Positions 1,630 through 16,212 of a stretch of DNA of 16,212 nt are shown piece by piece. Every line of letters begins with the position of its first letter. The first letter of the stretch is position 1. The notes under the pieces were generated by a model. That model made no database searches, was not told the DNA's origin, and was given only the letters and a program-made list of their open reading frames with translations. The DNA lies in assembly GCA_016926495.1 (NCBI GenBank), contig JAFGOL010000210.1, positions 1 through 16,212 on the forward strand, read 5' to 3'. This DNA is from Oligoflexia bacterium (GTDB lineage: Bacteria; Bdellovibrionota; JAFGOL01). A program made the translations under genes and the position numbers.

Positions 1630-1639
1630 ACCAGTAATA

Positions 1640-1669
1640 GTTATAATTTAAAAATCCGCAAAGTGTAAG
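1640..1669 (-). promoter_or_regulatory. Candidate sigma-70-type promoter of the sensor kinase
   Basis: Read on the minus strand, CTTACA (1669-1664) and TATAAC (1645-1640) are separated by 18 bases, matching the consensus boxes at 4 of 6 and 5 of 6 positions. The predicted start point lies only a few bases before the ATG at 1629, leaving almost no leader. This agrees with the lack of a Shine-Dalgarno sequence there. It was found by eye only. Confidence 0.35.
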
Positions 1670-1689
1670 GACTTTTTAATATGGCCCTA

Positions 1690-2979
1690 TTACCTTTTTA
1701 ACGCCTGGTCAACGTCCGCGATAATGTCGTCAATGTTTTCAAGCCCTATTGACAGGCGTATAAAGTCGGGCGTTACGCCTGTACCCAGTTGTTCCTCGGG
1801 CGAAAGCTGCTGGTGCGTTGTTGTGGCCGGGTGTATCGCAAGGCTCTTTGCGTCGCCTATGTTCGCAAGGTGAGATACAAGCTCCAGCGAGTCAATAAAC
1901 CTTTTGCCTGCCTCAAGTCCGCCCTTAATGCCAAAGCCTATGATCGCCCCGGCTCCCTTTTTAAGGTACTTGTCGGCGCGTTTCTTCTCGGGGCTGTCCT
2001 TAAGTCCGGGATAATTTACCCAGCCGACCTTTGAGTGTTTTTTCAAATATTCGGCAACAGCCAGCGCGTTTTCGGAATGCCTGGGCATTCTTAAATGCAG
2101 GGTTTCAAGTCCCTGTAACAGTAAAAAAGAATTGAACGGCGAGATGGCCGGGCCAAGGTCGCGCAAAAGCGTGACCCTTGCCTTTGTAATATACGCGATG
2201 TTGCCGTGCTTTTTTAAGGCTTCAACAAAATCAAGATCATGATAGCTTGGGTCAGGCCCGTAAATTAAGGGAAATTTGCCGTTTGTCCATTCGAATTTGC
2301 CGGAATCTACAATGATGCCGCCAAGGCTGGTACCGTGCCCGCATATAAACTTGGTTGCGGAATAAACGGCAATATCTACGCCGTAGTCAAAGGGCTTTAA
2401 CAGGTAAGGCGATACCGTGTTGTCCAGCACCAGCGGTATACCGTTATCGTGCGCTGTCTTTGCCAGGGCTTCAATGTCCGTAACATCAAGCTTGGGATTG
2501 CCTATGGACTCGGCGTATATTGCCTTTGTCTTTGGCGTGATTGCCTTTTTGAACGCCTCAAGGTCATTTGAGTTTACGAATTTTACCTTTATGCCCATGC
2601 GGGCGAACGTGTAGCGCAGCAGCGCGTATGTGCCGCCGTAAAGATTATTGGCTGATACGATTTCGTCCCCTGCCTGCGCAATATTTAACAGAGCTATGGC
2701 AATAGCAGACTGCCCGCTGGCAACGCCGAGGGCGCCGACTCCGCCGTCTATTGCGGCCATGCGTTTTTCAAGAACGTCCGTTGTGGGGTTCATAAGCCTG
2801 GTGTATATGTTGCCGAACTCCGACAGGCTGAAAAGGCTTGCCGCGTGCTCCGTGCTTTTAAAATTGTAAGAAGTTGTCTGGTAAATGGGCACAGCCCTTG
2901 ACCCTGTCGCGCTGTCAGGCTCGTGGCCTCCGTGCAGCGCCAGTGTCTCTGTTTTTAACCTGTCGTCGATTTTACTCAT
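1690..2979 (-). CDS. metY: O-acetylhomoserine sulfhydrylase (aminocarboxypropyltransferase), PLP enzyme
   Basis: A 429-residue cytoplasmic enzyme of the Cys/Met-metabolism PLP family (fold type I). It would condense O-acetylhomoserine with sulfide, or methanethiol, to give homocysteine or methionine. The opening [30 protein letters not shown], interrupted in the family by little variation, is typical of this enzyme, as are [10 protein letters not shown] (57-66), the ASGQSA loop (88-93), and the PLP-binding lysine Lys210 in [11 protein letters not shown]. The C-terminal region has [15 protein letters not shown] and the RLSIGLE motif (408-414). A length near 430 favours O-acetylhomoserine sulfhydrylase over the shorter cystathionine gamma-synthases and beta-lyases. 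The start at 2979 is supported by a strong AGGAGG (rc of 2988-2997) nine bases upstream. The ATG overlaps the stop of the Rrf2 gene as ATGA, so the two are translationally coupled. Substrate choice between O-acetyl- and O-succinylhomoserine cannot be read with certainty. Confidence 0.93.
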
Positions 2980-3404
2980 GGATTTAGTCCTCCTTTTACA
3001 GCCTGTTTTGCAAGCCCGGCAAATGTTATGTTGTCGATAATGTCAGACGCCGCTTTATCAACCCGTTGCCATACCGGTCTGAATACGCAGGAATCAATAT
3101 GAACGCAGTTTGTGTAATCATCCTTTATACATGATATGGGCTCCGTGGGGCCTTCAATATGTCTTAGCACTTCTCCCAGGGTAATCAGCGACGGATCTTT
3201 TGACAAAAGATAGCCTCCGGCATTGCCCCTCCTGCTTTCTATGAATCCCCCCTTTTTAAGGTCCACCAGTATCTGCTCCAGAAATTTAGACGGAGCATCA
3301 ATCAGTTTTGCAAGATCGTTTCCGGTCAGCAGTTTCCTGTTGTAGTTTAATGATAGGTGCAAAATTGCTTTAAGCGCGTAGTCGCCTTTAAATGTAATTT
3401 TCAT
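2976..3404 (-). CDS. Rrf2-family transcriptional regulator with three IscR-like cysteines
   Basis: A 142-residue DNA-binding protein of the Rrf2 family. The winged-helix domain occupies residues 1-82: [17 protein letters not shown], the recognition region [29 protein letters not shown] (split here at about residue 47 by natural helix boundaries), and the wing with RRGNAGGY. Cysteines 92, 100 and 106 (spacing C-x7-C-x5-C) lie where IscR has Cys92, Cys98 and Cys104, so a [2Fe-2S] ligand set or another redox/sulfur sensor is plausible. The gene overlaps metY by four bases and is transcribed away from the ETF operon across a 157-bp intergenic region holding both promoters. By context it probably controls sulfur assimilation (its own operon) and possibly etfBA, in the manner of CymR or IscR. 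Rrf2 assignment is secure; the effector is an inference. Confidence 0.92.
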
Positions 3405-3411
3405 AACAAAA

Positions 3412-3463
3412 CCTATAATTCCTATATATTAAGTAGACTATGTCTTTTGCAGTATATTGTCAA
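3412..3463 (-). promoter_or_regulatory. Candidate promoter/operator of the Rrf2-metY operon
   Basis: On the minus strand a perfect TTGACA (3463-3458) is followed after 17 bases by TAGTCT (3440-3435), a weak -10. Between it and the ATG at 3404 lie two direct copies of CCTATA (plus strand 3412-3417 and 3421-3426), nine bases apart and embedded in similar AT flanks. These could be an operator for the regulator encoded downstream. Promoter and operator are both by-eye calls. Confidence 0.35.
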
Positions 3464-3485
3464 ACATTATCCGTGGCGTCATGCC

Positions 3486-3527
3486 TTGAATTTTATACCT
3501 TGAGAATTCTATAAATAATGGTATATC
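3486..3527 (+). promoter_or_regulatory. Candidate promoter(s) of the etfBA operon
   Basis: Two overlapping candidates lie ahead of etfB. TTGAAT (3486-3491) is followed after 18 bases by TATAAA (3510-3515). TTGAGA (3500-3505) is followed after 16 bases by TATATC (3522-3527). A good Shine-Dalgarno GAGGTG (3551-3556) lies five bases before the ATG at 3562. The start points would be about 35-50 bases ahead of the gene. Confidence 0.4.
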
Positions 3528-3561
3528 TCTGACAATTCATAATCAAACTTGAGGTGAATAA

Positions 3562-4431
3562 ATGGAAATAGTTGTACTGGTAAAGCAGGTTCCTGATACC
3601 GCAAACGTGGGAGCGGACGCCATGAAGGAGGACGGGACCGTTAACCGTGCCGCCCTTCAGACCGTTTTTAATCCTGATGATCTCAATGCCTTGGAACTGG
3701 CACTGGATATTAAAGATAAATACGGTGCGAATGTTACTGCTATAAGCATGGGCCCTCCCAAAGCTGTTGAAGTTCTTAAGGAATCTTTATACAGGGGGGC
3801 AGACAGGGTTTACCTTGTAAGTGACGTTAAATTCGCGGGTTCGGACACCCTTGCCACATCCCTTATCTTAAAACATGCCATAGAAGCCAGTGTAAAAAAC
3901 TATGATCTTGTACTTACCGGAAGGCAGGCCATTGACGGGGATACTGCCCAGGTGGGACCCCAGGTTGCTGAAAAGCTGGGTATACCGCAACTGACCTTTG
4001 TTACTTCCGTTGAATCCGTAAATAAAAAAACGATCAGGGTTTCGGCCCTTACTGATGAGGGCTCTGCAATATTAGAGGCAAAAATGCCGCTGCTTATGAC
4101 GGTTGAAGGTGACGTTAATGTGCCAAGGCCGCCAAGGGTAAAGAGGCTTTTAAAATACATGAACGCGGTTTCCGAATTCCAGATGGAAGAGGACTGGCTA
4201 ACCGATGAAGAGGCAAAGTATATCAAGGAAAAGGGCCTTAAAGTAAAGGTGCTTTCATTCTGTGATCTGAACGTGGACCAGAACCTTATAGGCCTCTCCG
4301 GGTCTCCCACAAGGGTAAAGGAAATCCACAGCGTTGTTTTTAAATCCATTGAGTCCAGGGCGTATCCCGCTACACAGGACGGTGTAGGCAGCATGATGAA
4401 CGAACTTGTCAGTGAACATATAATAGGTTAG
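3562..4431 (+). CDS. etfB: Electron transfer flavoprotein beta subunit, bifurcating-type motifs
   Basis: A 289-residue small subunit of the soluble ETF heterodimer, which passes electrons from acyl-CoA dehydrogenase to the next acceptor. The N-terminus MEIVVLVKQVPDTANV is typical. Motifs FNPDDLNALE, TAISMGPPKAVEVL, GADRVYLVSDVKFAGSDTLATS (broken at about residue 92 by a turn) and LTGRQAIDGDTAQVGPQVAEKLG are the forms I know from anaerobic ETFs of the Acidaminococcus/Bcd/Car type. Mitochondrial-type EtfB instead has a GKQAIDDDCNQ-like segment that helps bind AMP. That suggests, but does not prove, a second FAD in this subunit and flavin-based bifurcation. The length is slightly more than the roughly 250-265 residues common for EtfB, because of a C-terminal arm (SVVFKSIESRAYPATQ and beyond). 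It is the first gene of etfB-etfA-acyl-CoA dehydrogenase-small protein, with 12 bases to etfA. Confidence 0.95.
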   Translation: MEIVVLVKQVPDTANVGADAMKEDGTVNRAALQTVFNPDDLNALELALDIKDKYGANVTAISMGPPKAVEVLKESLYRGADRVYLVSDVKFAGSDTLATSLILKHAIEASVKNYDLVLTGRQAIDGDTAQVGPQVAEKLGIPQLTFVTSVESVNKKTIRVSALTDEGSAILEAKMPLLMTVEGDVNVPRPPRVKRLLKYMNAVSEFQMEEDWLTDEEAKYIKEKGLKVKVLSFCDLNVDQNLIGLSGSPTRVKEIHSVVFKSIESRAYPATQDGVGSMMNELVSEHIIG

Positions 4432-4443
4432 GGAGTTGATAAT

Positions 4444-5475
4444 ATGAAGTACGGAAATGTCGCTGTTTTTGTTCAGCACAACGGAAAAAAGGTTGCCGAC
4501 GTAAGTTTACAGCTTGTCTGCAAGGCAAGGGAGCTTGCGGATGAGCTTAATACCGGGGTTTCGGCCTATCTGCCGTGCGGTGCCGTTAAGACCATGCCGA
4601 ACGAGCTTTTCTGCATGGGCGCGGACAATGTTTACGCCATTGAACACAAGGAACTTGCAGACTACAGGAGCCTTCCATATACAAAGGCCGTTCTTGAGGC
4701 TGTAAAATCCGACAATCCTTATATAGTGCTTTTCGGAGCTACAAAAACCGGCAGGGATCTTGCTCCTCGCGTTGCTTCCACTTTAAAATCAGGACTTACC
4801 GCGGACTGCACGGAACTTAAGCTCGGAAGCTACACTGATAACAAGACAAAGAAAGAATACAATAATCTTTTGTACCAGATACGTCCCGCGTTTGGCGGTA
4901 ATATTATCGCCACCATTATTAATCCTGAAAGGCATCCGCAGATGGCCACAGTACGCGAAGGCGTAATGAAAATGAAAAGCCCTGAAAAAAAGCGCAGCGG
5001 AAAGATCATACCCGTGACCGTGGAGTTTAACGCGGTGGACCTTGCGGTAAAAGTGATTGACAAGGTGATCAAGGAAAAGAAGGTCAATCTTACCGGCGCG
5101 AATATCATAGTTTCAGGCGGCATGGGCGTGGGTTCAAGGGAGAATTTCGCAATCCTTCAGCAGCTCGCGGATGCTCTGGGCGCGGAGCTGGGAGCGTCAA
5201 GGGCCGCGGTTGATCAGGGCTGGATCAGCAAGGAACACCAGGTGGGCCAGACAGGCGTAACCGTACGTCCCAAGCTTTACATAGCCTGCGGAATTTCCGG
5301 AAGCATACAGCACAAGGCCGGCATGGATGAATCGCTGAAGGTTATCGCCATAAACAGCGATCCGGACGCCCCTATAATGAATTTTGCGCATGTAAAGATA
5401 GTGGGAGACCTTAACGAGGTTGTTCCGATGATGATCAAGGCATATAAAAAATCAGAAGCAGTTGCGTGCAATTAA
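4444..5475 (+). CDS. etfA: Electron transfer flavoprotein alpha subunit
   Basis: A 343-residue large ETF subunit that binds the electron-carrying FAD. The N-terminal half (about 1-200) has the ETF alpha/beta fold with PYIVLFGATKTGRDLAPRVAS and GLTADCTELKL; the RPAFGGNIIATI motif lies near residues 147-158. The C-terminal FAD domain is complete: VSGGMGVGSRENFAIL, LGASRAAVDQGWI, the QVGQTGVTVRPKLYIACGIS block (about 266-285), GSIQHKAGM, INSDPDAPI and FAHVKIVGDL. No ferredoxin domain is fused, so this is the plain two-domain form. GGGAG (4431-4435) overlaps the etfB stop and sits eight bases before the ATG, which sets this start. It acts with EtfB in the cytoplasm as the partner of the acyl-CoA dehydrogenase encoded next. 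Confidence 0.96.
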   Translation: MKYGNVAVFVQHNGKKVADVSLQLVCKARELADELNTGVSAYLPCGAVKTMPNELFCMGADNVYAIEHKELADYRSLPYTKAVLEAVKSDNPYIVLFGATKTGRDLAPRVASTLKSGLTADCTELKLGSYTDNKTKKEYNNLLYQIRPAFGGNIIATIINPERHPQMATVREGVMKMKSPEKKRSGKIIPVTVEFNAVDLAVKVIDKVIKEKKVNLTGANIIVSGGMGVGSRENFAILQQLADALGAELGASRAAVDQGWISKEHQVGQTGVTVRPKLYIACGISGSIQHKAGMDESLKVIAINSDPDAPIMNFAHVKIVGDLNEVVPMMIKAYKKSEAVACN

Positions 5476-5485
5476 GAGGTGAATG

Positions 5486-7201
5486 ATGGCGAATTTTTAC
5501 GACGATAATCCTGATCTTTTGTTTCATCTGGATAATGCCGATTTGGACGAAGTAATTACACTGGTTGAAGATAATTTTACGCAGAACGGCACATATGATC
5601 ACGCGCCCAGAAACATTCAGGAGGCCAGGCAGGGTTACAGGGCTGCCCTGAAGGTGGCCGGAGAGATTACGGGCACCAGGATTGCCGCCAATGCCGAATC
5701 CGTGGACGAGGAAGGCTCGCACTTTGACAAGGGCAGGGTTACTTACGCCAGGGGCATTCGCGAGGACCTTGATCTTTTGCTCGGCGCAGATTTCGGCGGG
5801 ATCACACTTCCGCGCAGGTACGGCGGGCTTAATTTTCCCACAACAGTATCAACAATGATCATAGAAATGATATCAAGGGCCGATGCCAGCCTTATGAACC
5901 TTATAGGTTTGCAGGATATCGGCGAAACAATAAATGAATTCGCGTCAGAGGAAATCAAAAGCAAATACCTTCCCATGTTTACAAGCGGAAAGGTAACCGG
6001 GGCCATGATACTTACCGAGCCTGATGCCGGCTCCGACCTTCAGGCGGTCCAGGCCAGGGCCGTTTACAACGAGAAAACAGGAACGTGGAGGCTATACGGC
6101 GTTAAAAGATTTATTACAAACGGATGCGCCGAGGTTTCGCTTGTGCTTGCAAGGAGTGAGGCGGGAACAAAAGACGGTCGCGGGCTTTCAATGTTTATTA
6201 TAGAAAGGGATGATACCGTGCAGATAAGAAGGATCGAAAACAAGCACGGAATACACGGTTCCCCGACGTGCGAGCTTCAGTTCAACGGAACGCCCGCGCA
6301 ACTTGTGGGGAAAAGAAAAATGGGCCTTATACGTTACGTAATGTCACTTATGAACGGAGCAAGGCTTGCGGTTTCGGCCCAGGCGCTGGGTGTTGCGGAA
6401 GCTGCCTACAGGGAAGGGCTTAAATACGCGCAGGAAAGAATACAGTTCGGACAGCCTATTATAGATTTTCCGGCAGTGTACGACATGCTGACCATGATGA
6501 AAACACAGATCGAGGCCGCAAGGGCGCTGGTATACGAAACCTGCAAGTACGTTGATCTTAAAAAGGAATACACAAAGCTTGTGGCGCATGATCCCACGAA
6601 CCAGGAAAACAAGGCAAAGCTTAAAAAATATACTTCAATAGCCGCGATGCTGACCCCGATGTCCAAGGCGTACAGCACGGAAATGTCCAACAGCGTGGCA
6701 TACGACGCTGTCCAGATACACGGTGGCACGGGCTTTATGAAGGAATTTCCCGTTGAAAGACTTTCAAGAGACGCAAGGATAACCAACATATACGAGGGAA
6801 CAACGCAGTTGCAGGTTGTCGCAGCCATAGGCGGTATTATAAACGGCGTGCTTGAAGATCTATTGAAAGAGTACGATAAAAAGGATTACCCGGTTGATCT
6901 TCACGAGCTTCGCGAATCGCTTACGTCAATAAGGTCAATGCTGAATAAATGTATTTCCATATTCGCCGAAAAAAAGGACGCGGAATTTCAGAATTATTAC
7001 GCAAGGAACGTTGTTGACATGGCCTGCGATCTTTTTATAGGCTACAGGATGCTTGATTTCGCTGTTATAGACGACAGGAAAAAGGTCGTGGCAAAACTCT
7101 TTATTGAAAAGGCTTTTGATAACGCGTTAAAGCTTGTTGAACCTGTTATAAAAAACAGGACAACGGCCATAGAGAACAGGAACCTGTTACTGGGCCTGTA
7201 A
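5486..7201 (+). CDS. Acyl-CoA dehydrogenase family flavoprotein, long form
   Basis: A protein of about 571 residues of the FAD-dependent acyl-CoA dehydrogenase family, which oxidises an acyl-CoA to the 2-enoyl-CoA and hands electrons to ETF. An N-terminal helical domain (about 30-170) precedes the middle beta domain with AMILTEPDAGSDLQAV and KRFITNG (about 173-213). The C-terminal helical domain has ERIQFGQPIIDFPAV, the FAD/dimer motif AVQIHGGTGFMKEFPVERL, and NIYEGTTQLQ, in which Glu437 is at the position of the catalytic base. A further 110 residues of helical sequence follow, making it much longer than the usual 380-residue enzymes and closer to the 570-600-residue subfamily. The substrate is unknown. 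Two ATGs stand in tandem at 5483 and 5486; the Shine-Dalgarno GAGGTG (5476-5481) fits the second better, one base being too close for the first. It follows etfA by about ten bases. Confidence 0.94.
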   Translation: MANFYDDNPDLLFHLDNADLDEVITLVEDNFTQNGTYDHAPRNIQEARQGYRAALKVAGEITGTRIAANAESVDEEGSHFDKGRVTYARGIREDLDLLLGADFGGITLPRRYGGLNFPTTVSTMIIEMISRADASLMNLIGLQDIGETINEFASEEIKSKYLPMFTSGKVTGAMILTEPDAGSDLQAVQARAVYNEKTGTWRLYGVKRFITNGCAEVSLVLARSEAGTKDGRGLSMFIIERDDTVQIRRIENKHGIHGSPTCELQFNGTPAQLVGKRKMGLIRYVMSLMNGARLAVSAQALGVAEAAYREGLKYAQERIQFGQPIIDFPAVYDMLTMMKTQIEAARALVYETCKYVDLKKEYTKLVAHDPTNQENKAKLKKYTSIAAMLTPMSKAYSTEMSNSVAYDAVQIHGGTGFMKEFPVERLSRDARITNIYEGTTQLQVVAAIGGIINGVLEDLLKEYDKKDYPVDLHELRESLTSIRSMLNKCISIFAEKKDAEFQNYYARNVVDMACDLFIGYRMLDFAVIDDRKKVVAKLFIEKAFDNALKLVEPVIKNRTTAIENRNLLLGL

Positions 7202-7215
7202 GAAGGTAGACCGGC

Positions 7216-7482
7216 ATGCCGTATATAAAGCGGGAACTGAGAAAAGATATCGATAAAATAATTGACGACCTCGCGCGGGCAATAAAGGAAAAGGGCACGG
7301 AAAACCGCGCCGGCGTTTTAAATTACAGCGTAAGCCTGCTTCTGAAAAAACTTTACGACGTTAAATACTCCGAAGTCAACGAGGCCATGGGTGCCCTTGA
7401 ATGCATCAAGCAGGAATACTACCGCAGGGTTGCCGCCCCTTACGAAGACATTAAAATAAAAGAAAACGGGGATGTTTATTAG
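7216..7482 (+). CDS. Small conserved protein of unknown function at the end of the ETF operon
   Basis: An 88-residue, highly charged, probably cytoplasmic helical protein that starts 14 bases after the acyl-CoA dehydrogenase stop, with AGAAGG (7201-7206) as its ribosome site. The ends are characteristic: MPYIKRELRKDIDKII at the start, LNYSVSLLLKKLY in the middle, and ALECIKQEYYRRVAAPYEDI followed by KIKENGDVY at the end. I recall the same pattern (MPYI..., NYxIxxLL, LECxKQEFYRRVxxPYE, NGDV) in a family of unknown function found in phages and bacteria, probably the one named DUF6899, but I cannot verify the name. No catalytic motif is apparent. Its place in the operon suggests co-expression with the ETF/dehydrogenase system, but the family is not known to be linked to it. 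Confidence 0.85.
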   Translation: MPYIKRELRKDIDKIIDDLARAIKEKGTENRAGVLNYSVSLLLKKLYDVKYSEVNEAMGALECIKQEYYRRVAAPYEDIKIKENGDVY

Positions 7483-7500
7483 TTTCGCCATAAATATTAC

Positions 7501-7866
7501 TTGAAAATCTTGCGTAAAAGTTATATAAACAAAATTTATATATTTACGAAGAAAATCAATTATGAATATATTTTAAATTATTTTTTACCGGAATGGCATG
7601 CTCTAAAATCAGAACAAACCATAAGAAAAGAAGAATTTATTCCTAAGGCTGATGCAATACTGAAAGACTATAATGCCTATTTACTTGATAATTGGAATAC
7701 AGGTATAAAAGAGAAGTTTAAGAACTATTTAAATGATATTAATGAAAGTGTTACCTTTTGCGGTGAAGGACTGCATCTTTCTTTGAGGTTGGTTGATTCA
7801 TTTGAAGCTGTCGGTATTGGTATTGACTATAACCCTAAATACTTATTAAATTTTTTAAAACAATAG
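7501..7866 (+). CDS. Unrecognised AT-rich ORF, possibly a gene remnant
   Basis: A 121-codon open frame beginning with TTG and lacking any visible Shine-Dalgarno. It is distinctly AT-rich: 7561-7620, for example, contains 16 G/C in 60 bases. The product is lysine- and tyrosine-rich (KSYINKIYIFTKKINYEY), with a better-ordered second half (ESVTFCGEGLHLSLRL, then DSFEAVGIGIDYNPKYLL). I do not recognise a family. It ends with TAG at 7864-7866, directly abutting the stop of the convergent ATPase gene (TAGCTA). Weak start, base composition and location suggest acquired DNA, either a short real gene whose true start I cannot place or the surviving C-terminal part of a longer one. Confidence 0.45.
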   Translation: MKILRKSYINKIYIFTKKINYEYILNYFLPEWHALKSEQTIRKEEFIPKADAILKDYNAYLLDNWNTGIKEKFKNYLNDINESVTFCGEGLHLSLRLVDSFEAVGIGIDYNPKYLLNFLKQ

Positions 7867-9117
7867 CTAACACCCGCAATCAAAAGGGATCACGTCAATG
7901 TTTTCTTCTAATTTATAATGATTTTCAGCCGGTGAAATAATAGCTCCCCTGGGAATATCCAGATGAGGGTATGTTTCCATGAAAGCCTTAATACCCCCGG
8001 TGTCCCTTTTGGACGGGTGGGAATTGGCTTTAATTTCAATTGGAAAAAACTTGTTATCCAGTTCCATGATAATATCAACTTCAGCGCCGGCCGCCGTTCT
8101 CCAGTGATACAAGCCGGGCTTAACGCCTGATAACGCTGATTGTTTAATAATTTCCATTACAACCGCTGATTCAAAAATATTTCCCCAATTAGGGTTGGAA
8201 ATTATAGAATTCTGAGACGTAATGCCCAGGCAATAACATATTAATCCGGCATCTGTTAAATGGCCTTTGGGTTTTGAAGTGACTCTTTTAGTCGTGTTCC
8301 CTGAAAAGGCAGGCAGTTCAATCCATTGAAATGTAGACGTTAATACCTGTAACCATCTGCTTGCGGTCTGAGGAGTTATACCCATTTCCCTGCCAAAGTG
8401 AGAATAGTTTATTTCATTTGCGGATGAAGCGGCACAAAGTTTAAAAAAACGGTTAAAAAGAGCATAATCGTTTAACTCAATAATTTGCCTGATATCACGA
8501 TCAATATATGTCCTTATATAGCTCATGAAAAAATCAGGTATAACGTCTATATCAATAAATTGGGCCTCAGGCAAAAACCCTCTCCATAATTGTTCAAACA
8601 GGGTAAACCTGGGTTTTTTATTTTTTTTGTTGTTTAACTGTCTGTTATTTAACCACTCATCGAGCCATAAGTTTTCAAAACCCGAACCCTGGATTTCAAA
8701 ATAGCTCAAACCTGATAGATCCAGAAAAACAGCCCTTCCTGCAAGACTTTCACTTAAATTTTTCATAACCTCCCATTGCTGAGAACCTGTTATAAAAAAT
8801 TGCCCGTTACTCCTGTTTTTTTCTAAAAACCTCTTAATAGAAGAAACAAGCCCGGGTACGTATTGAATTTCATCTAAAATAACCGGAGTATTTCTGTTCC
8901 GCAAAAATAAATCCGGATCAGATTTAGCACCTTCTATATCTTCCAGGGGATCAAATACAACACGGGGCAGATCGGGAAAAACATGTTCTAACAAGGTACT
9001 TTTTCCCACCTGCCTGGCTCCGGAAACTACAATAACCGGAAAATTACCGGCCAGTTTTTTAAGCTTCTTTTCCAGGAAGCGCGTTAAATAAATATGATTA
9101 TTTAAAAATTTAGCCAT
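7867..9117 (-). CDS. AAA-family ATPase with C-terminal DUF4143-type domain
   Basis: A 416-residue protein of the widespread, poorly understood AAA_14/DUF4143 class. Residues 25-140 hold the ATPase: Walker A GARQVGKST (33-41), Walker B VILDEIQ (79-85) and a sensor-1-like FFITGSQQ (107-114). Residues about 200-290 form a helical, winged-helix-like section (SSANEINYSHFGREMGI, TPQTASRWLQVL). Residues 310-365 show the restriction-endonuclease-like signature of DUF4143: Glu316 in IFESAVV, GAEVDII with Asp348, and IEIKAN with Glu361 and Lys363. Members are common in accessory DNA and their substrate is generally unknown; defence or nucleic-acid roles are often suspected but unproven. The gene stands alone, AT-richer than its neighbours, with its own promoter-like region. 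The tail IPFDCGC is intact, so it is full length. Confidence 0.9.
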   Translation of the reverse strand: MAKFLNNHIYLTRFLEKKLKKLAGNFPVIVVSGARQVGKSTLLEHVFPDLPRVVFDPLEDIEGAKSDPDLFLRNRNTPVILDEIQYVPGLVSSIKRFLEKNRSNGQFFITGSQQWEVMKNLSESLAGRAVFLDLSGLSYFEIQGSGFENLWLDEWLNNRQLNNKKNKKPRFTLFEQLWRGFLPEAQFIDIDVIPDFFMSYIRTYIDRDIRQIIELNDYALFNRFFKLCAASSANEINYSHFGREMGITPQTASRWLQVLTSTFQWIELPAFSGNTTKRVTSKPKGHLTDAGLICYCLGITSQNSIISNPNWGNIFESAVVMEIIKQSALSGVKPGLYHWRTAAGAEVDIIMELDNKFFPIEIKANSHPSKRDTGGIKAFMETYPHLDIPRGAIISPAENHYKLEENIDVIPFDCGC

Positions 9118-9159
9118 ATACCTTGTATTTTAATGATTAAATCATCATTTTGCAAGGTA
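9118..9159 (-). promoter_or_regulatory. Promoter with nested inverted repeats ahead of the DUF4143 ATPase
   Basis: On the minus strand, TTGCAA (9155-9150) and TAAAAT (9132-9127) are spaced by 17 bases (4 of 6 and 5 of 6 consensus matches). The spacer contains the 13-base palindrome ATGATttaATCAT (9133-9145). The whole element is bracketed by the 7-bp inverted repeat TACCTTG (9119-9125) and CAAGGTA (9153-9159), which overlaps both boxes and ends next to the start codon. This is a typical layout for an operator, so tight repression is likely. The repressor is unknown. Confidence 0.45.
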
Positions 9160-9167
9160 TTTTTTAC

Positions 9168-9402
9168 TTGTAGAAATCCTGCGGAGTAAAAAATAATTCT
9201 TAACTGATTTCCTGAATAATTCGCAAAGAAGCAAGGGCGCATGCGGAAGCTGATATTGTTACATGGAGTTAGACGCTGAAGCTTGCGGAAGCAAAGATTC
9301 AGCGGATTACTCCATGTCAATATCAGCGACAAATAGCCCGCAGCGGGTGCGTAATGAAGGAAATCAGTTAAGAATTTATATATACGAAGCAGGATTCTTG
9401 TG
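9168..9402. repeat. Large nested imperfect palindrome, MITE-like or structured element
   Basis: This fills most of the 302-base gap between the pilR-like gene and the ATPase gene. The best arm is 19 bp and perfect: AATTCTTAACTGATTTCCT at 9195-9213 against its complement at 9358-9376. Further in, ATTCGCA (9219-9225) pairs with TGCGTAAT (9348-9355) with one bulge. GCTGATATTG...CATGGAGT (9249-9269) pairs with ACTCCATG...CAATATCAGC (9309-9327). CGCTGAA (9274-9280) pairs with TTCAGCG (9298-9304), and the tip GCTT-GCGG-AAGC (9281-9292) closes it. Further out, GAAATCCTGC (9173-9182) faces GCAGGATTC (9389-9397). All pairs share a centre near 9286. No transposase, clear target duplication or ORF with a ribosome site is present. 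Confidence 0.75.
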
Positions 9403-9419
9403 TTTAGGGATAAAATCCT

Positions 9420-10820
9420 TTAATCCATTCCGTATTTTTCCAGCCTGTACCGCATTGACCTGAATGATATGCCCAGCAATTTCGCGGCGCGTTTTTTTAC
9501 CCCGCCCGTTTTGTTAAGGGCCTTGTTCAGCAGGTCCTTTTCTATATCATCGATTATTTTTTCAAGTTCAATACCGCCTTCGGGAATACTAATGTTGTGG
9601 CTGCCGGTTTTTTTAATACCTCCCTGGGCGCGAGAAATATTGTATATGTTGGGCGGAAGGTCCGCCAGCTTGATCTTGCTGTCAGTTGACAGCGCAACGG
9701 CCCTTTCTATTATGTTTTCAAGCTCACGCACATTGCCCGGAAACGGGTATATTTTCAGGGCGGAAAACGCGTCCTGTGTTATAAAGTCGATCTGCTTGTC
9801 GAGCTTTTTGGAATACTTTTCCGCGAAATGGTTGGACAGCATTATGATATCGTCCCCCCTTTCCCTGAGCGGAGGTGCCTGTATCTGTATAACGTTGAGC
9901 CTGTAATAAAGGTCTTCCCTGAAAAGACCTTTTGCCACCATCTCGTGCAGGTTCTGGTTGGTCGCGGTTATGATCCTTATGTCAATATGTATGTCGTCGG
10001 TGTCGCCGATCCTTCTTATGGTCCTTTCCTGCAACGCCCTGAGCAGCTTGACCTGCAGGTGTATGGGGAGTTCCCCGACTTCGTCGAGAAAGATGGTGCC
10101 GTGATTGGCGGTTTCAAAAAGTCCCACCTTGTCGGCAATGGCGCCCGTAAAAGAACCTTTCTTGTGACCGAACATTTCGCTTTCTATCAGGTTTTCCTGT
10201 ATGGCTCCGCAGTTCACTATTACAAAGGGTTTGTCCTTAAGGGGGCCGTTGTAATGTATGGCCCTGGCTATAAGCTCCTTGCCTGTGCCGCTTTCGCCGG
10301 TGATGAGGATATTGCTGGTGGTCTTTGAAACTATCCTTACCATTTCGTAGAGTGCTATCATTGACGGAGACGAACCGACAAAATCGCTGTAGCTGTATTT
10401 TTCCACAAGGTTTGACTGCAGTGTCTGGCTTTCCCTCGTGATGTTTCTTTTCTCAAGAGCTTTTTGGGTCAGGTTTATGAGGTGGTCAACCTTGAAAGGC
10501 TTTGTTATAAAATCGTATGCCCCGCTCCTCATTGCCTCTACTGCGTTTTCCGTTGTACCGTACGCGGTTATTATTATTATCTCGGTGCCGGGCGCGAGTT
10601 TTTTCAGTCTTATCAATGCCTCAAGACCGGAAATATGGGGCATCTGTATATCCAGAAAGATAAGGTCGAATTTATTTTCCTTTGCAAGCCCGAATGCGGC
10701 TATTGCCGAATCACAGGCCGTAACGGAAAATTTTTCCTTTGTAAAAAGCAGGTCCAGAAATTCCCTTATGCTTTCCTCGTCGTCAACGATCAGTATCCTG
10801 TTTTTGTTTTCATTGCTCAT
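9420..10820 (-). CDS. pilR: PilR-like sigma-54-dependent response regulator
   Basis: A 466-residue NtrC-class activator. The receiver domain (1-125) has the acidic pair Asp13/Asp14, phospho-acceptor Asp57 (FLDIQMP), Thr85 and Lys107 (FITKPF). The AAA+ domain (148-375) carries Walker A GESGTGKE (175-182), the sigma-54 contact loop as GSFTGA (222-227), Walker B GTIFLDEVGEL (241-251, Asp246/Glu247) and the R-finger region REDLYYRLNV. A Fis-type helix-turn-helix ends the protein (about 437-463, GGVKKRAAKLLGISFRSMRY). GSFTGA in place of GAFTGA, within HKKGSFTGAIADKVGLFETA, is the form I know from PilR proteins. With pilS and pilC immediately upstream, PilR is the best call; the usual PilR target is the sigma-54 promoter of pilA, which is not in this window. 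The start at 10820 has AGGAG seven bases upstream and lies inside the pilS end (11-base overlap). Confidence 0.9.
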   Translation of the reverse strand: MSNENKNRILIVDDEESIREFLDLLFTKEKFSVTACDSAIAAFGLAKENKFDLIFLDIQMPHISGLEALIRLKKLAPGTEIIIITAYGTTENAVEAMRSGAYDFITKPFKVDHLINLTQKALEKRNITRESQTLQSNLVEKYSYSDFVGSSPSMIALYEMVRIVSKTTSNILITGESGTGKELIARAIHYNGPLKDKPFVIVNCGAIQENLIESEMFGHKKGSFTGAIADKVGLFETANHGTIFLDEVGELPIHLQVKLLRALQERTIRRIGDTDDIHIDIRIITATNQNLHEMVAKGLFREDLYYRLNVIQIQAPPLRERGDDIIMLSNHFAEKYSKKLDKQIDFITQDAFSALKIYPFPGNVRELENIIERAVALSTDSKIKLADLPPNIYNISRAQGGIKKTGSHNISIPEGGIELEKIIDDIEKDLLNKALNKTGGVKKRAAKLLGISFRSMRYRLEKYGMD

Positions 10821-12294
10821 AAGTGTTCTCCTGTGGAAGTGTTACTGTAAAAGCAGCTCCCAGCCGTGAATTTTCAAGTTCTATTTTGCCTCCGTGCGCC
10901 TTTATGATGTTATTGACAATGGCAAGTCCCAGCCCGGTGCCCTGCTTTTTGGTGGTGAAAAAAGGTTCGAATATTTTAGGCCTTACATTTTCGGGCACCC
11001 CGGTGCCCTCGTCGCTCACGGTAACAGAGCAGATGTCTTTTTTACCCTTTATGGCGCATGTTATTTTTCCGTTGTCTCTGCTTGCGTGAACGGAGTTTAT
11101 CAGCAGATTGTCAAAGCACTGGGAGATCCTGTGGTAGTCGCCGTAACATATGTGCCTGTTTCCGTCATTAATGAATTCCACCGAAAGCTTTTTTTCTATG
11201 TAGCCCGTATGGCTCTGTATGCATTCGCAGCAGGTGGTCAGGAGTTGCGGCATGTTTATTATTTCGTCGCTTCTCCTGTCAGGGCTTGAGAACATCAAAA
11301 ATTCCTCTACAAGGTTATTGAGCCTCGAGGTTTCGCGCGCGATGATGCCGAGCAGCTTTTTGCCCTGCTCGCCGGTTGTAAATACAACCGGGTCTTTTTC
11401 AATAAGCTCACCGGCCCCCACAAGCGAGGCAACGGGATTTTTTATTTCGTGCGCCAGAATCGCGGTTATTGAACCTATTAATTTCAGCTTGTTGTATTCT
11501 TCCTCGTTGATTTCCTGTATGACATCCTGGCTTATGTCCCTCAGGATCATAAAACTGTACTTGGATGTTTCGATATAATGCACGTTAAGATAAGTATTCC
11601 CGTCCACCTGATACTTGTGCGGCTCAATGCTTCCGGCTTCCTTCAGATCCTCCAGCCTGCTTTTTATGTCGAACTTGTTACGGGCTATGTTTTTTGCGTT
11701 GTTGTTTATTGAAAGTATATTGTTATTCCTGTTCAGTATTACCATGCCTATTTTAAGGTTATTGATCAGGTTGTCGTTGAGCTTGCTTATTGACCGTATG
11801 TCCTTTTGGGTTTCCTCGTACTGGTTCCTGAAAAAATAGATTATGGCGGCAAAAACAAAAAAGCTCATGGTAAGCAGTACAAGGGTTTTAATTTCTGCGG
11901 GATTGCCGGAGATAAAGAACGTGGCTACAATTATTATTTCAGATAATACGGCGGAAATAAGTATTCCCGTATTTCTGAGAGTGTAAGACGTTATGAAAAT
12001 ATAAAGGGGCAGCAGCAGAGTGAACGGCGAATTAATCCCTCCCGTAAGATTAATAAGGATAAAAACATACAGGGAATCAAAAACAACAAACAGTATGTTG
12101 AGCGGCACGGATTTGAACCTGTTTCTGGCAGCCTTGAAAAGCAGCGGTAGTGATACCAGGGCCAGCGCGGTAAGCATGGTAACGTAATTGACGGATTCAA
12201 CGTCATTGTATGACATTAAAAATATCTGGATGGCTATTACGGTTACAAGCCTTCCGAAAACCAGGTTGTTAAATCTTCTGCTTTCGACCCTCAT
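10810..12294 (-). CDS. pilS: PilS-like membrane sensor histidine kinase
   Basis: A 494-residue integral inner-membrane kinase. About six hydrophobic segments fill residues 10-155, with the TGGINSPFTLLLPLYIF stretch (84-100) typical of PilS-type sensors. A divergent PAS-like domain follows (about 170-255, VILNRNNNILSINNNAKNI). The kinase core has phospho-acceptor His282 (ILAHEIKNPVASL), an N-box at FDNLLINSVHAS (394-405), G1 box VSDEGTGVPENV and FFTTKKQGTGLGLAIV. In known systems PilS senses pilin in the membrane and acts on PilR to control pilin expression. Six bases separate it from pilC upstream, and it overlaps pilR downstream by 11 bases, so the pair must be co-translated. There is no ideal Shine-Dalgarno, but AGGTAAGG within the end of pilC could serve the ATG at 12294. 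Kinase identity is certain; the PilS name rests on topology plus neighbours. Confidence 0.9.
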   Translation of the reverse strand: MRVESRRFNNLVFGRLVTVIAIQIFLMSYNDVESVNYVTMLTALALVSLPLLFKAARNRFKSVPLNILFVVFDSLYVFILINLTGGINSPFTLLLPLYIFITSYTLRNTGILISAVLSEIIIVATFFISGNPAEIKTLVLLTMSFFVFAAIIYFFRNQYEETQKDIRSISKLNDNLINNLKIGMVILNRNNNILSINNNAKNIARNKFDIKSRLEDLKEAGSIEPHKYQVDGNTYLNVHYIETSKYSFMILRDISQDVIQEINEEEYNKLKLIGSITAILAHEIKNPVASLVGAGELIEKDPVVFTTGEQGKKLLGIIARETSRLNNLVEEFLMFSSPDRRSDEIINMPQLLTTCCECIQSHTGYIEKKLSVEFINDGNRHICYGDYHRISQCFDNLLINSVHASRDNGKITCAIKGKKDICSVTVSDEGTGVPENVRPKIFEPFFTTKKQGTGLGLAIVNNIIKAHGGKIELENSRLGAAFTVTLPQENTYEQ

Positions 12295-12300
12295 TCCGCC

Positions 12301-13518
12301 TTACCTCATCTGGCTGAGAATGGTAAAAACAGGCATAAAAAAGCTCGTGAGTATCGCCCCGATAAGTATTCCGCCCAGGAGCAGTATCATGGGCTCTATA
12401 ACGGAGGAAAAAAATTTGCCTATTCTTTTCAGTTCGTCCATCAAAAACGGCGCGAGTTCGTCAAGCATGTCCGGAAGAGCTCCCGTGATTTCTCCGACGC
12501 TGAATACCTGGACGACCATGGGCTTGAACAGCTTGCTCCTGGCCAGGAAGGGTGCGATGTATTCGTTTTTCGACGCGGCCTCCCTTGCCTTTAGCAGCCA
12601 TTCCTCGTATATGTGGTTGCCGATTTTTTCGGTTGCAAGCTCAAGGGCCCTTTGCAGCGAAAGGTTCAGCCTTAAAGCCAGGCTTACGGTAAGTATGGTT
12701 TTGAGGGTATACGCAAGGTTGAACAGTTCGGACATTAAGGGAAGCTTCACAACAGTGCCGTCTACCCACAGTTTTAAAAGCCTGCTTCTGAACAGCAGGT
12801 ACGACGCAATGGCAAAGATAAAAAACAGCAGTGATAATATCGCCAGGTTTTCCTTAAGGATGCTGCCTATGGTGCTCATCGTAAGCAGCGATAAGGGTAT
12901 GGGCTGGTTGTACGTCCTGTATATAAGTTCAAAAACCGGGGCTATCCCGAGTACCACGATGAACAGCGCTATCAATATAATGGAGATGACCGCCAGGGGA
13001 TACAGGATCGTCCGCGTGGTGGACTTGTTGATTTCATTTTCCAGTTTGAAAAATGTCAGCCATTTTTCGAGGGCTTCCTCAAGGTTTCCCCTTAACTCTC
13101 CGGAAGCAGTAAGATTTAAAAACAGCGTGTCAAAATGATTGGGAAATTTGGCAAGGGCCTGCGAAAAAGTCATGCCCTTTTCCATGTTGGCAAGGGTGGT
13201 CCTTGCAACGTCCCTTACGAGCGCGGTGCCGCCCTCGGCGACCATTACTTCCAGGGCCTGTGTTATTGATAATCCGGACCTGAACATTACAAGCAGCTGT
13301 TTGGCGAAAAAAGTTTTCTCGGCTATGCTGAATGTTCCGGAAGGCTGCGTTATTTTTTTTACGCCCTTTCTGGCCGGCGCGGACTTTTCGGTTATTCTTG
13401 TGGGTCTTATTTTCTGCGAGCGCAGCTTGATCCTGAGTTCTGTTTCGTTTTCGGCGAACAATATGCCTTTTATTTTTTCGCCTTCCCTGCTTATACCCTC
13501 GTATGAATAATCAGGCAT
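12301..13518 (-). CDS. pilC: Type IV pilus inner-membrane platform protein PilC (GspF family)
   Basis: A 405-residue GspF/PilC-family protein, the normal length. It forms the cytoplasmic-membrane platform on which the assembly and retraction ATPases act. The N-terminal cytoplasmic arm has MPDYSYEGISREGEKIKGIL. Two T2SSF repeats follow (about 68-195 and 270-397). Each has the family signature: AKQLLVMFRSGLSITQALEV with SGELRGNLEEAL (139-150), then LKTILTVSLALRLNLSLQRA with VGEITGALPDML (341-352). Membrane segments lie at about 168-195, 226-243 and 373-397. It overlaps the stop of the PilT-like gene by eight bases and is followed six bases later by pilS. GspF of type II secretion is the alternative; adjacency to PilS/PilR-like genes favours the pilus assignment. 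Confidence 0.93.
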   Translation of the reverse strand: MPDYSYEGISREGEKIKGILFAENETELRIKLRSQKIRPTRITEKSAPARKGVKKITQPSGTFSIAEKTFFAKQLLVMFRSGLSITQALEVMVAEGGTALVRDVARTTLANMEKGMTFSQALAKFPNHFDTLFLNLTASGELRGNLEEALEKWLTFFKLENEINKSTTRTILYPLAVISIILIALFIVVLGIAPVFELIYRTYNQPIPLSLLTMSTIGSILKENLAILSLLFFIFAIASYLLFRSRLLKLWVDGTVVKLPLMSELFNLAYTLKTILTVSLALRLNLSLQRALELATEKIGNHIYEEWLLKAREAASKNEYIAPFLARSKLFKPMVVQVFSVGEITGALPDMLDELAPFLMDELKRIGKFFSSVIEPMILLLGGILIGAILTSFFMPVFTILSQMR

Positions 13519-14305
13519 GTTCGCCGGACCTCAGGCTGTTTATCAGAGTGCCCACCTTAATGTTAGTCCTGGACCGCTCGGGTCTTGTATTAAAAACGCT
13601 TTCGTTCTCGGAAATATGCAAAAATTTGTCTACGCCGAGCTTTTCTATGCAGTTGCTGTTTGTTCCGGCTATGACCAGTTTTTCCCTGGATATGTCAATC
13701 AAAAGCTCCAGCGTTGCAGGCAGCGTGCAACTTGGAACAACAAGCAGCCCGTAGTTTATCTGGCTGCTTAGCTCAAGCATCTGTTCTATGCCGGTACCGG
13801 GCCTGAAAAAGTTTGTAATATTCAGGTAATCGTCATTAATGGAGAAGAACTTGTTCTGCTCTATAATGTGTGCGTGTATGTTCCTTGTATTTACTATGTA
13901 TGAAACAATCCTGTACGCCTGGTAAAAACGCTTTTCTATGTTTGCCGAGCTTACCGCGATTATACCCGTTGCCGCAAAAGCCATTTTTTCCGTTACGGGA
14001 TCATCGTCCAGGTTTTCAACGGAAACCAGGGGCAGATGACGTATAAGAATATCGTCCGCGATCTTTGTAAGTAAAAAATCGCAGCCGTTGATATTGATAA
14101 TGATATTATCTCTTTCGGACAGGTATCTTTTCGTGATATCGTCAAGGCTGTCAGGACTCACGGGCAGCACACCGTTTAGATATGACTTCTGCGAATCCGA
14201 TATCAGTATGGGCAGGTGCCCCTTGCTGAGTATGATTTCCTTAAAGCCTTTTTCAACGCTGAAAAGCAGTATCTGTTTGAATGTGTTAAAACCTTCCCAC
14301 CCCAT
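13511..14305 (-). CDS. Degenerate PilT/GspE-like protein lacking ATPase motifs (pseudo-ATPase)
   Basis: This 264-residue protein (276 if read from TTG at 14341) aligns by eye with PilT along its length. LLFSVEKGFKEIILSKGHLPIL (26-47 from the TTG) matches the PilT N-terminal segment LAFSAKQGASDLHLSAG...P. TGIIAVSSANIEKRFY (125-140) matches RGLVLVTGPTGSGKST, so Walker A is gone. NTRNIHAHIIEQNKFF (151-166) matches TRHHHILTIEDPIEFV, with EDP now EQN. YGLLVVPSCTLPAT (197-210) matches DIILVGEMRDLETI, so Walker B is lost. EKLVIAGTNSNCIEKLGVDKF (220-240) matches GHLVFGTLHTTSAAKTIDRVVDVF, losing the His-box. It lies directly upstream of pilC, the pilT place in pilB-pilT-pilC orders, and overlaps it by eight bases. 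It cannot hydrolyse ATP by the usual mechanism and may regulate or scaffold the platform. The match is manual and remote. The ATG at 14305 fits the promoter better than the TTG. Confidence 0.7.
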   Translation of the reverse strand: MGWEGFNTFKQILLFSVEKGFKEIILSKGHLPILISDSQKSYLNGVLPVSPDSLDDITKRYLSERDNIIININGCDFLLTKIADDILIRHLPLVSVENLDDDPVTEKMAFAATGIIAVSSANIEKRFYQAYRIVSYIVNTRNIHAHIIEQNKFFSINDDYLNITNFFRPGTGIEQMLELSSQINYGLLVVPSCTLPATLELLIDISREKLVIAGTNSNCIEKLGVDKFLHISENESVFNTRPERSRTNIKVGTLINSLRSGEHA

Positions 14306-14312
14306 AACCGAA

Positions 14313-14341
14313 AGTCTAGCATTGGTGACAATTTTTGTCAA
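14313..14341 (-). promoter_or_regulatory. Promoter of the PilT-like-pilC-pilS-pilR operon
   Basis: On the minus strand, a perfect TTGACA (14341-14336) is followed after 17 bases by TAGACT (14318-14313, four of six matches). Transcription would start near 14306, at or next to the ATG at 14305, giving a leaderless or nearly leaderless message. The TTG at 14341 would then lie inside the -35 box and not be translated from this promoter. The 15-base dyad TGACAA-ttt-TTGTCA (14326-14340) overlaps the -35 and could be an operator. Confidence 0.45.
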
Positions 14342-14349
14342 AAAACAAA

Positions 14350-14381
14350 GCGGTTGACCGCGTTAATTGTTATACTATAAT
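14350..14381 (+). promoter_or_regulatory. Strong sigma-70-type promoter of the FecR-domain gene
   Basis: TTGACC (14354-14359) and a perfect TATAAT (14376-14381) are separated by 16 bases, the best promoter-like match in the window. The predicted start near 14388 leaves a leader of about 23 bases with GGAGG (14401-14405) before the ATG at 14411. The -35 lies inside the 12-base palindrome GCGGT-tg-ACCGC (14350-14361), a possible operator. The promoter is back to back with that of the pilus operon. Confidence 0.6.
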
Positions 14382-14410
14382 GATTGAATTCGTTAATTCC
14401 GGAGGTATTT

Positions 14411-15376
14411 ATGAGACTAATTGCAGTAATGATTTTAGCGATATCTTTTTGCCTTTCTGCGTTTGCGGCAGATAAACACGCCGGGTTTATAACAGGCATA
14501 GATGGTGATGTAAAGATTTTCAGAACAGCCGGTATGCCGGAAATACCTAATGACGCGGTTAATTCAAGATGGGAGGGCAGGGATTATAAATCATTCAGCC
14601 CCAAACTTTACGGAAAAGTTTATGAAGGTGACATCCTCGTCACAAACGCCGATTCCAAGGCAAAGCTCATAATGTCGGGTTCCAATACTGTAATGGTCGG
14701 CGCCTTTACGCATTTTATCGTAAAGCTTGCAAGGGAAACCTCAAAGGGGACCACTTCCAGCTTCAAACTGCTGTTTGGAAAGGTAAGGTCAATAGTGAAA
14801 TCAAAAATAGGCAGGAGCGGAAAATACGAGGTAAGGACCCCCTCGTCGGTCATAGGTGTAAGGGGTACCGATTTTTACACAATATACAGGCCACAGAATT
14901 CGACTACAACTGTTTCGACCCTTGAGGGTGTTGTTGCCGTAAAAAACCTTACAGGTAAGGTTAAAAAAGAGATCCTTGTCGAATCAGGCTATTCAACCTC
15001 CGTTATAAACGTGGATGATATAAATGTAAAAAAATTCAAGGAGGTGACCAGGGTTACTTCTCTTGAGTCTGTGGGGCTCCCGACCAAGCCTGAAAAGGTA
15101 AGATCTGCCGAGCTTCAGGGTATAAAGGAAACATCAACCATTGAAACGGCCATAGGCAGGATCGATGTTGACCTTTCAAACAAGGCCGCGGCCCAGGCCA
15201 GTGAAAACAAGGTATTGCAGATAATAAAAACAGATACGCCCCAGGTTGATGTATCAAAGGACCCTTTGAATATGAATCTTGACGCCCTTATCAAGAAAGT
15301 CGTAAACGAGGAAAAAATGAGGCAGAGAGAGGAAGGGTCCCTGAACAGGCTGGATCAGTGGATTAAAAACTATTAG
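14411..15376 (+). CDS. Secreted FecR-domain protein
   Basis: A 321-residue exported protein. A signal peptide, MRLIAVMILAISFCLSAFA, would be cut after Ala19 (AFA-AD). The FecR-type beta domain spans about residues 65-180: the entry motif VYEGDILVTNADSKAKLIM, then FKLLFGKVRSIV (118-129), the hallmark TPSSVIGVRGTDFYTIY (143-159) and TTTVSTLEGVVAV (165-177). The C-terminal 120 residues are charged and unassigned. It lacks the N-terminal cytoplasmic and transmembrane parts of true anti-sigma FecR, and no sigma factor gene is adjacent, so it is not a FecIR regulator; stand-alone FecR domains are usually periplasmic or surface proteins of unknown role. An earlier in-frame ATG at 14384 was rejected because the promoter, GGAGG at 14401-14405 and the signal peptide all point to 14411. 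It heads a likely operon with queH and the SKYKSK-repeat gene. Confidence 0.9.
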   Translation: MRLIAVMILAISFCLSAFAADKHAGFITGIDGDVKIFRTAGMPEIPNDAVNSRWEGRDYKSFSPKLYGKVYEGDILVTNADSKAKLIMSGSNTVMVGAFTHFIVKLARETSKGTTSSFKLLFGKVRSIVKSKIGRSGKYEVRTPSSVIGVRGTDFYTIYRPQNSTTTVSTLEGVVAVKNLTGKVKKEILVESGYSTSVINVDDINVKKFKEVTRVTSLESVGLPTKPEKVRSAELQGIKETSTIETAIGRIDVDLSNKAAAQASENKVLQIIKTDTPQVDVSKDPLNMNLDALIKKVVNEEKMRQREEGSLNRLDQWIKNY

Positions 15377-15383
15377 TAGAATT

Positions 15384-15911
15384 TTGTTACATACCTGTTG
15401 TGCTCCGTGCGCGTGCCATCCTGTGCAAATGCTTTGCAAGGACTATGATATTCTTGCTTTTTTTTCCAATTCCAACATAGCCCCGGAGCAGGAATACAAG
15501 GTAAGGCTTGAATCGTTTTACCTGCTGTGCGGGCAGCGGTCCCTTGAATATCATGTGGATGAATATGATAATGCCGGATGGCTGGACTGCGTAAAGGGGC
15601 TTGAGGATGAACCGGAAAGAGGGGCCCGCTGCGCTAAATGCATATATTACAGGTTAAAACGCAGCTATGATTTTGCAAAAAAAAACAATATAATGTATAT
15701 TACATCAACGCTTACTGTTGCCCCTTACAAGGATTCGCCAATGATTTTTGAGGTTGCTGATTCCCTGTCCGGAGAATACGGTATAGAATATGTCAGGTAT
15801 AATTTTAAAAAAAACGACGGTTTCAAAAAAACTATGGAGCAGGCGAAAAAAAGTAATTTATACTTGCAGAAATACTGTGGTTGTATATTTAGCAGTAATA
15901 AAGGAAGGTGA
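15384..15911 (+). CDS. queH: Epoxyqueuosine reductase QueH
   Basis: A 175-residue cytoplasmic enzyme of the QueH (former DUF208) family, which reduces epoxyqueuosine to queuosine in tRNA, the last step of Q synthesis, as a non-homologous replacement for QueG. The conserved ligand residues are all visible: Cys5-Cys6 in HTCCAPC, KGLEDEPERGARCAKC with Cys83 and Cys86, TSTLTVAPYKDS (107-118), and YCGCIFS with Cys165 and Cys167. Length and order match the family. The start is unusual: no ATG or GTG is available after the in-frame TGA at 15342-15344, so TTG at 15384 is the first standard candidate, and it has no clear ribosome site. The upstream in-frame codons read ISRIL, which would extend the typical ILLHTCCAPC start, so initiation at ATT (15372 or 15381) is conceivable. 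It follows the FecR gene by seven bases. Confidence 0.93.
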   Translation: MLHTCCAPCACHPVQMLCKDYDILAFFSNSNIAPEQEYKVRLESFYLLCGQRSLEYHVDEYDNAGWLDCVKGLEDEPERGARCAKCIYYRLKRSYDFAKKNNIMYITSTLTVAPYKDSPMIFEVADSLSGEYGIEYVRYNFKKNDGFKKTMEQAKKSNLYLQKYCGCIFSSNKGR

Positions 15912-15917
15912 CTTGCC

Positions 15918-16212
15918 ATGAAGCAAAAACTTTTTGCGGTTTTATCTGTTGTTGCGGTTTTTATTTTTGCATCATTGCCTCTGAATTTACACGGTGACGA
16001 ACTGGACGAGTTGCTTCAGGAAGCGGTTGAAAGCGAGGCTGCGGCTCCGGCGCAGGCCCAACCCCAGGCAGAGTCCCAGGCTTTGCCCGGTACCACGTCC
16101 GGTGCGATAGATCCTGATGCCGTCCCGGAAGTTAAAAAGCCCGCTTCGTCGTCCAGGTCTAAATATAAATCCAAATCAAAATACAAATCCAAATCGAAAT
16201 ATAAATCTAAAA
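15918..16212 (+). CDS. Exported protein with lysine-rich SKYKSK repeats (partial, runs off the window)
   Basis: This gene is not closed in the window: 98 codons are present from ATG 15918. GGAAGGTG (15903-15910) overlaps the queH stop and lies seven bases before the ATG. Residues 1-26 are a signal peptide (MKQKLFAVLSVVAVFIFASL and on to about LHG). A short acidic helix DELDELLQEAVESEAA follows, then an Ala/Pro/Gln linker (about 46-80), then a basic repeat tract of SKYKSK units, three complete copies by the window edge. The repeat sits on 18-bp units at 16158-16175, 16176-16193 and 16194-16211, which differ only at third positions. I do not recognise a family. An envelope- or surface-associated protein whose basic tail binds polyanions, such as peptidoglycan, nucleic acid or LPS, is possible but is a guess. 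The rest of the gene is outside the view. Confidence 0.75.
   Translation, partial: MKQKLFAVLSVVAVFIFASLPLNLHGDELDELLQEAVESEAAAPAQAQPQAESQALPGTTSGAIDPDAVPEVKKPASSSRSKYKSKSKYKSKSKYKSK
16158..16211 (+). repeat. 18-bp coding tandem repeat (three units seen)
   Basis: Three consecutive 18-base units encode Ser-Lys-Tyr-Lys-Ser-Lys. Serine codons vary (TCT, TCC, TCA, TCG) and tyrosine codons alternate (TAT/TAC), while the amino acids stay constant. The array continues past the window end, so copy number is unknown. Confidence 0.85.

Follow-up and report, generated by a model that had tools for sequence, protein, structure and literature searches.

We analyzed a contig of 16,212 nucleotides (JAFGOL010000210.1, positions 1 to 16,212; hereafter the window) from the Oligoflexia bacterium assembly GCA_016926495.1 (Bdellovibrionota), and focused on a gene that occupies the pilT position directly upstream of pilC and whose product, hereafter pseudo-PilT, resembles the pilus retraction ATPase PilT without its catalytic residues. 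The gene stands in a pilC-pilS-pilR-like order with no pilB upstream (Table 1), and its product has a shorter C-terminus than PilT. The open frame at 13511-14341 on the minus strand, from which the sequence-only reading of this DNA had started, was confirmed as real. Comparisons were made within the window's family (f1; four genomes, G000-G003), with the family containing Bdellovibrio (f5), and across 368 genomes of the phylum, in which 120 slots upstream of an operon pilC were read.

Table 1. Features of the pseudo-PilT locus in the window
Feature	Position	Strand	Description
PilR/NtrC-type sigma-54 response regulator	9420..10820	-	Domain matches
PilS-like histidine kinase	10810..12294	-	Weak 6TM_PilS match, 20.4 bits, below the cut-off of 27
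PilC-type inner-membrane platform	12301..13518	-	Two T2SSF stretches (domain matches)
Pseudo-PilT stop / pilC start overlap	13511..13518	-	Kept in 4/4 genomes
Pseudo-PilT gene	13511..14305	-	ATG start, 264 aa; PilT-like N-terminal domain and degenerate RecA-like domain
Promoter, sigma-70-like	14313..14341	-	TTGACA 14341-14336, 17-nt spacer ending TGC, TAGACT 14318-14313

Searches with the single pseudo-PilT sequence returned no Pfam match at E ≤ 10, one chance match in NCBIfam (E = 0.15), three chance matches in the PDB (E = 0.12-1.7) and no relative in a scan of the genome contigs, while an alignment-based scan of those contigs recovered three loci, apparently the three family relatives already aligned. 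The protein scored below the curated threshold of the PilT family TIGR01420 and did not match T2SSE (PF00437), and comparisons with individual slot proteins from G007 (probability 0.3%) and G015 (18%) did not support a relationship. The profile built from pseudo-PilT and its three family relatives was more informative: among the 368 phylum genomes it found eight weak matches outside the family, six of which are true PilTs. The predicted fold also resembles PilT-class ATPases, with both PilT domains matched in a two-domain arrangement, though domain orientation and the parts of low predicted local distance difference test score (pLDDT) agree poorly (root-mean-square deviation, rmsd, 7-10 Å). 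The corresponding slot in relatives holds PilT or degenerate PilT, so that an unrelated protein in this position was rejected. Neither of the two outcomes named beforehand as contrary to a PilT-derived pseudo-ATPase, namely no likeness to PilT/GspE and an unrelated family in the relatives' slot, was thus encountered, and the sequence comparisons and the structural model together confirm the predicted product as a PilT homologue lacking the PilT catalytic residues.

We further compared the catalytic columns in an alignment of 50 canonical slot PilTs and 38 degenerate slot proteins (29 from f5, 4 from f11, 1 from f14 and 4 from f1), from which row L170, a PilB and not a slot gene, was left out. 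All five residues considered were kept in 50/50 canonical proteins. Of the degenerate proteins, 21 retained the Walker A lysine, 3 the Walker B glutamate, 8 the Asp-box glutamate and 12 the Asp-box aspartate; none has the His-box histidine. The four f1 proteins carry arginine at the Walker A lysine position, serine or aspartate at the Walker B glutamate, and glutamine, lysine or threonine at the Asp-box aspartate; the His-box histidine falls in a gap, although these rows are hard to align and the exact His-box column is unsure. The reported loss of all four motifs was reproduced at the PilT-aligned columns, with the Asp-box glutamate alone kept. Might some relatives still bind nucleotide without hydrolyzing it, so that the protein would act as a nucleotide-gated sensor? 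The lysine kept in 21 of the 38 proteins, and the f5 members that combine a Walker A-like GERRQGKS or GPRRSGKS with a replaced Walker B glutamate, are in its favor, but nucleotide binding is unlikely in f1 because arginine replaces the lysine and the P-loop glycines are absent in 4/4 proteins, and we regard such a sensor as highly improbable.

The upstream region and the frame itself were then examined for signs of retention. A start at TTG 14341 was doubted because this triplet is the first of a -35 box conserved in 4/4 family genomes (TTGACA/TTGCCA, 17 nt, TAGACT/TAGAAT in the alignment, ahead of a conserved ATG); the extended frame is interrupted three codons ahead of the ATG in G002. Judged by these alignments, translation probably starts at ATG 14305, giving 264 aa, and transcription probably at or adjoining the same ATG, which would yield a near-leaderless transcript. 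The promoter matches 10/12 consensus positions, and TG precedes the second hexamer. Comparable matches in the region number 12 versus 8.3 in shuffled sequence, so the consensus match alone is weak and the case for the promoter is carried by its conservation. As previously proposed, the gene overlaps pilC: the pilC ATG falls within the final 8 nt of the pseudo-PilT gene in all four genomes. An operon regulated by PilS/PilR, as the sequence-only reading had put it, is a different matter. NtrC-type regulators work with sigma-54, and since the operon's own promoter looks to be of sigma-70 type, the locus is better described as encoding PilS/PilR-like proteins than as being controlled by them.

The pseudo-PilT frame is intact in 4/4 family genomes from three genera, and the four-row alignment contains 35 invariant columns. 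Between G001 and G003, nonsynonymous divergence (dN) of pseudo-PilT is 0.30 at a synonymous divergence (dS) of about 2.3, which is saturated, and dN is 0.147 for pilC and 0.119 for the regulator; by this comparison pseudo-PilT appears constrained, yet more loosely than its neighbors. Slow decay, in which a vestigial pilT is being lost and is held only by its overlap with the pilC start (translational coupling), could account for that looseness, for the missing C-terminal portion, for a pilC in two frames in G002, and for f5 lineages with a shortened slot gene (209-257 aa) or, in G210, with none. It is at odds with the four intact frames and a dN far below dS, with the gene's own conserved promoter and invariant columns, and with the persistence of a slot gene in 30/31 f5 loci, and we consider it improbable. 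The claim that the gene is retained and not plainly decaying thus gained support from the intact frames and the conserved promoter.

Dead PilTs are not confined to the window's family. They occupy 30/31 slots in f5, 4/19 in a second family and 1/1 in a third, and a PilC tree including the window's family requires five changes of state, three of them forced by supported branches; the f1 branch in this tree is very long, and the window PilC shares 23% identity with its operon-encoded counterpart in G007. A hidden Markov model (HMM) of 25 dead PilTs from the other families recovered nine dead slot proteins outside its alignment together with a 209-aa remnant (E of about 1e-12 or better). Within f5 the slot gene shrinks further (L170 2672-3298, L160 2715-3437, L177 2576-3298, L169 2528-3298 and L172): some loci encode proteins of 209-257 aa seemingly without the N-terminal domain, and in G210 the slot is empty and pilB adjoins pilC.

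The closest published case is PilT1 of Bdellovibrio bacteriovorus (Bd1510). Excerpts of PMC4237445 describe it as lacking Walker A, keeping a Walker B box and lying in pilB-pilT1-pilC-pilS-pilR, and its authors propose that it acts in regulating or stabilizing pili. In the same excerpts, deletion of pilT1 lowered the share of piliated cells by electron microscopy (8.2% versus 22.3%) but not by immunofluorescence (33.4% versus 27.0%); in a pilT2 mutant it brought back part of the ability to prey on biofilms. Pseudo-PilT shares with Bd1510 the slot directly upstream of pilC and PilT homology without Walker A. It differs in being shorter (264 aa), in having its P-loop erased, in lacking a pilB upstream, and in belonging to a genome in which neither PilB nor PilT2 nor pilins outside the gsp (type II secretion) contigs were detected. 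With PilT itself (TIGR01420, PF00437) it shares fold class and gene slot but neither catalytic residues nor a match to either family; with PilU, a PilT-dependent accessory ATPase, it shares the idea of an accessory PilT paralogue. We read the window protein as a pseudo-PilT of the PilT1 type that goes further than the published case, in a setting where neither pilus motors nor non-gsp pilins were detected. Among open-licence papers we found none on PilT as a pseudo-ATPase or pseudoenzyme, and in the open-licence excerpts on degenerate PilT the word "degenerate" refers to FimX-type proteins, not PilT. These results suggest that one published oddity belongs to a recurrent pattern, in which the retraction-motor gene of the operon came to encode a pseudoenzyme several times in one phylum and kept its place.

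The setting in f1 was assessed from fragmented genomes (completeness 75.5, 88, 80 and 88%). Canonical PilT exceeded the cut-off in 344/368 phylum genomes and in 0/4 f1 genomes. For PilB, for which the cut-off is strict (the operon pilB of G015 was missed by one bit), each f1 genome gave one match at E ≤ 1e-40, namely gspE between a secretin gene and a gspF gene, and no other; contig C196, taken up as a pilB-pilC candidate, was dropped as a gsp operon. The four genomes yielded 13 N-methyl pilin signatures, every one on a gsp contig (four each in G000, G001 and G003 and one in G002; for the fourth match in G001 the contig was called gsp by eye), compared with totals of 15 in G018 and 7 in G007; this search does not cover Tad pilins, and f1 seems to have Tad-like genes. 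Other basal parts persist alongside PilC and the PilS/PilR-like pair. PilM passed the cut-off in two genomes, G002 and G003, but in neither G000 nor G001; Pfam identified PilN, PilO and PilP in G003, gene order did so in G002, and a PilQ with a secretin domain is encoded in G000 and G001. The sequence-only reading had offered a cap, brake or replacement of a retraction motor as possible functions. It had also offered a sensor, which may yet apply. A pseudo-ATPase in the pilT slot stands, but none of the three motor-related functions gained support for the window's genome: in the four family genomes no canonical PilT or PilB besides gspE and no non-gsp pilin was found, and a retraction brake in the window's genome was rejected because the motor it needs was not found.

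A dead PilT ring on PilC might instead be an adaptor that couples PilC to an active hexameric ATPase encoded elsewhere, the partner being an unlinked canonical PilT in f5 and, in the window's family, one of the only ATPases left, GspE or a CpaF-like protein. Both of the latter are encoded in the window's genome. Excerpts of PMC6762196 report that in Vibrio cholerae the function of PilU depends on the presence of PilT protein, for which an inactivated form suffices, and the f5 genomes with dead slot PilTs have one canonical PilT each, except G197, which has none. In f1, however, the N-methyl pilin signatures found are confined to gsp contigs, which leaves nothing evident to move, and gspE has its own gspF adjoining, so this coupling seems unlikely.

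Descent from PilT, loss of the catalytic residues, and a conserved slot, frame and promoter in four genomes frame what we favor, at about even confidence: that the window protein descends from the operon PilT (the pilT1 slot of pilB-pilT-pilC-pilS-pilR), is catalytically dead and serves as a non-motor part of a pilus-derived envelope complex. Like PilT, pseudo-PilT would still dock on PilC from the cytoplasmic side and act there as a structural or allosteric component; the state of the complex would probably be relayed to the adjoining kinase/regulator pair, with no fibre moved. For the family as a whole we suggest, more tentatively, that the basal body of a type IVa pilus (PilMNOPQ, PilC and dead PilT) has lost its fibre and both motors and persists as an envelope complex without a fibre, connected to PilS/PilR and with a pseudo-ATPase in the motor seat. 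The findings make a non-motor role of PilT at PilC testable and raise the possibility of pilus basal bodies without pili.

Several observations weigh against this interpretation. The structural model has a pLDDT of 66 and, against PilT, a template modelling score of about 0.4 with an rmsd over both domains of 9-10 Å (Foldseek) or 7-9 Å (VIA), and the hhalign probability for PilT alone is 12.7%. The HMM of dead PilTs from other families misses f1 (window protein -0.9 bits; best of the four, E = 0.024), which weakens the tie of f1 to the other dead PilTs and leaves its tie to PilT unaffected. The evolutionary rate of the dead PilT is about double that of PilC (dN 0.30 versus 0.15), and in G002 pilC, which lies at the end of a contig (L008 5348-6323), is split over two frames that overlap, reflecting either assembly error or decay. 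The absences in f1 are statistical, four independent misses of a present gene having a chance of 7e-4 per gene; the window's own genome has no PilM over cut-off, and GspE could in principle serve the window PilC.

Related systems were seen in other relatives. The G005 genome, listed as 100% complete, keeps a PilMNOP(Q) set without PilC. In G005 (L129 3574-7695) and in a second small-genome relative, G020 (L130 2247-6636), a pilMNOPQ-like operon lies beside an aroC-like gene (by eye); no PilT was found in either, their sole strong PilB and PilC matches are the gsp ones, and the PilQ secretin domain is missing in G005 and below cut-off in G020. At E ≤ 1e-60, canonical PilT was likewise not found in the small-genome families f3 (6 genomes), f13 (2), f10 (1) and f4 (1). 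A Tad-like cluster in f1 (L264, G000:C131) carries a secretin, a T2SSF match and CpaF-like and FHA-like genes (mostly by eye), so that the family seems to hold a further system of the Tad kind.

At the locus itself, the PilS-like kinase frame is only 238 aa in G001 (L007 8301-9014) and 204 aa in G003 (L009 5215-5826), overlapping the pilC end, and these shortened kinases are without the membrane part seen in the window (Pfam was run on G001 only). On the other side of the pseudo-PilT promoter, the window carries a divergent gene for a FecR-domain protein (14384-15376), whose place is taken directly by a QueH-like gene (by eye) in G001 and G002.
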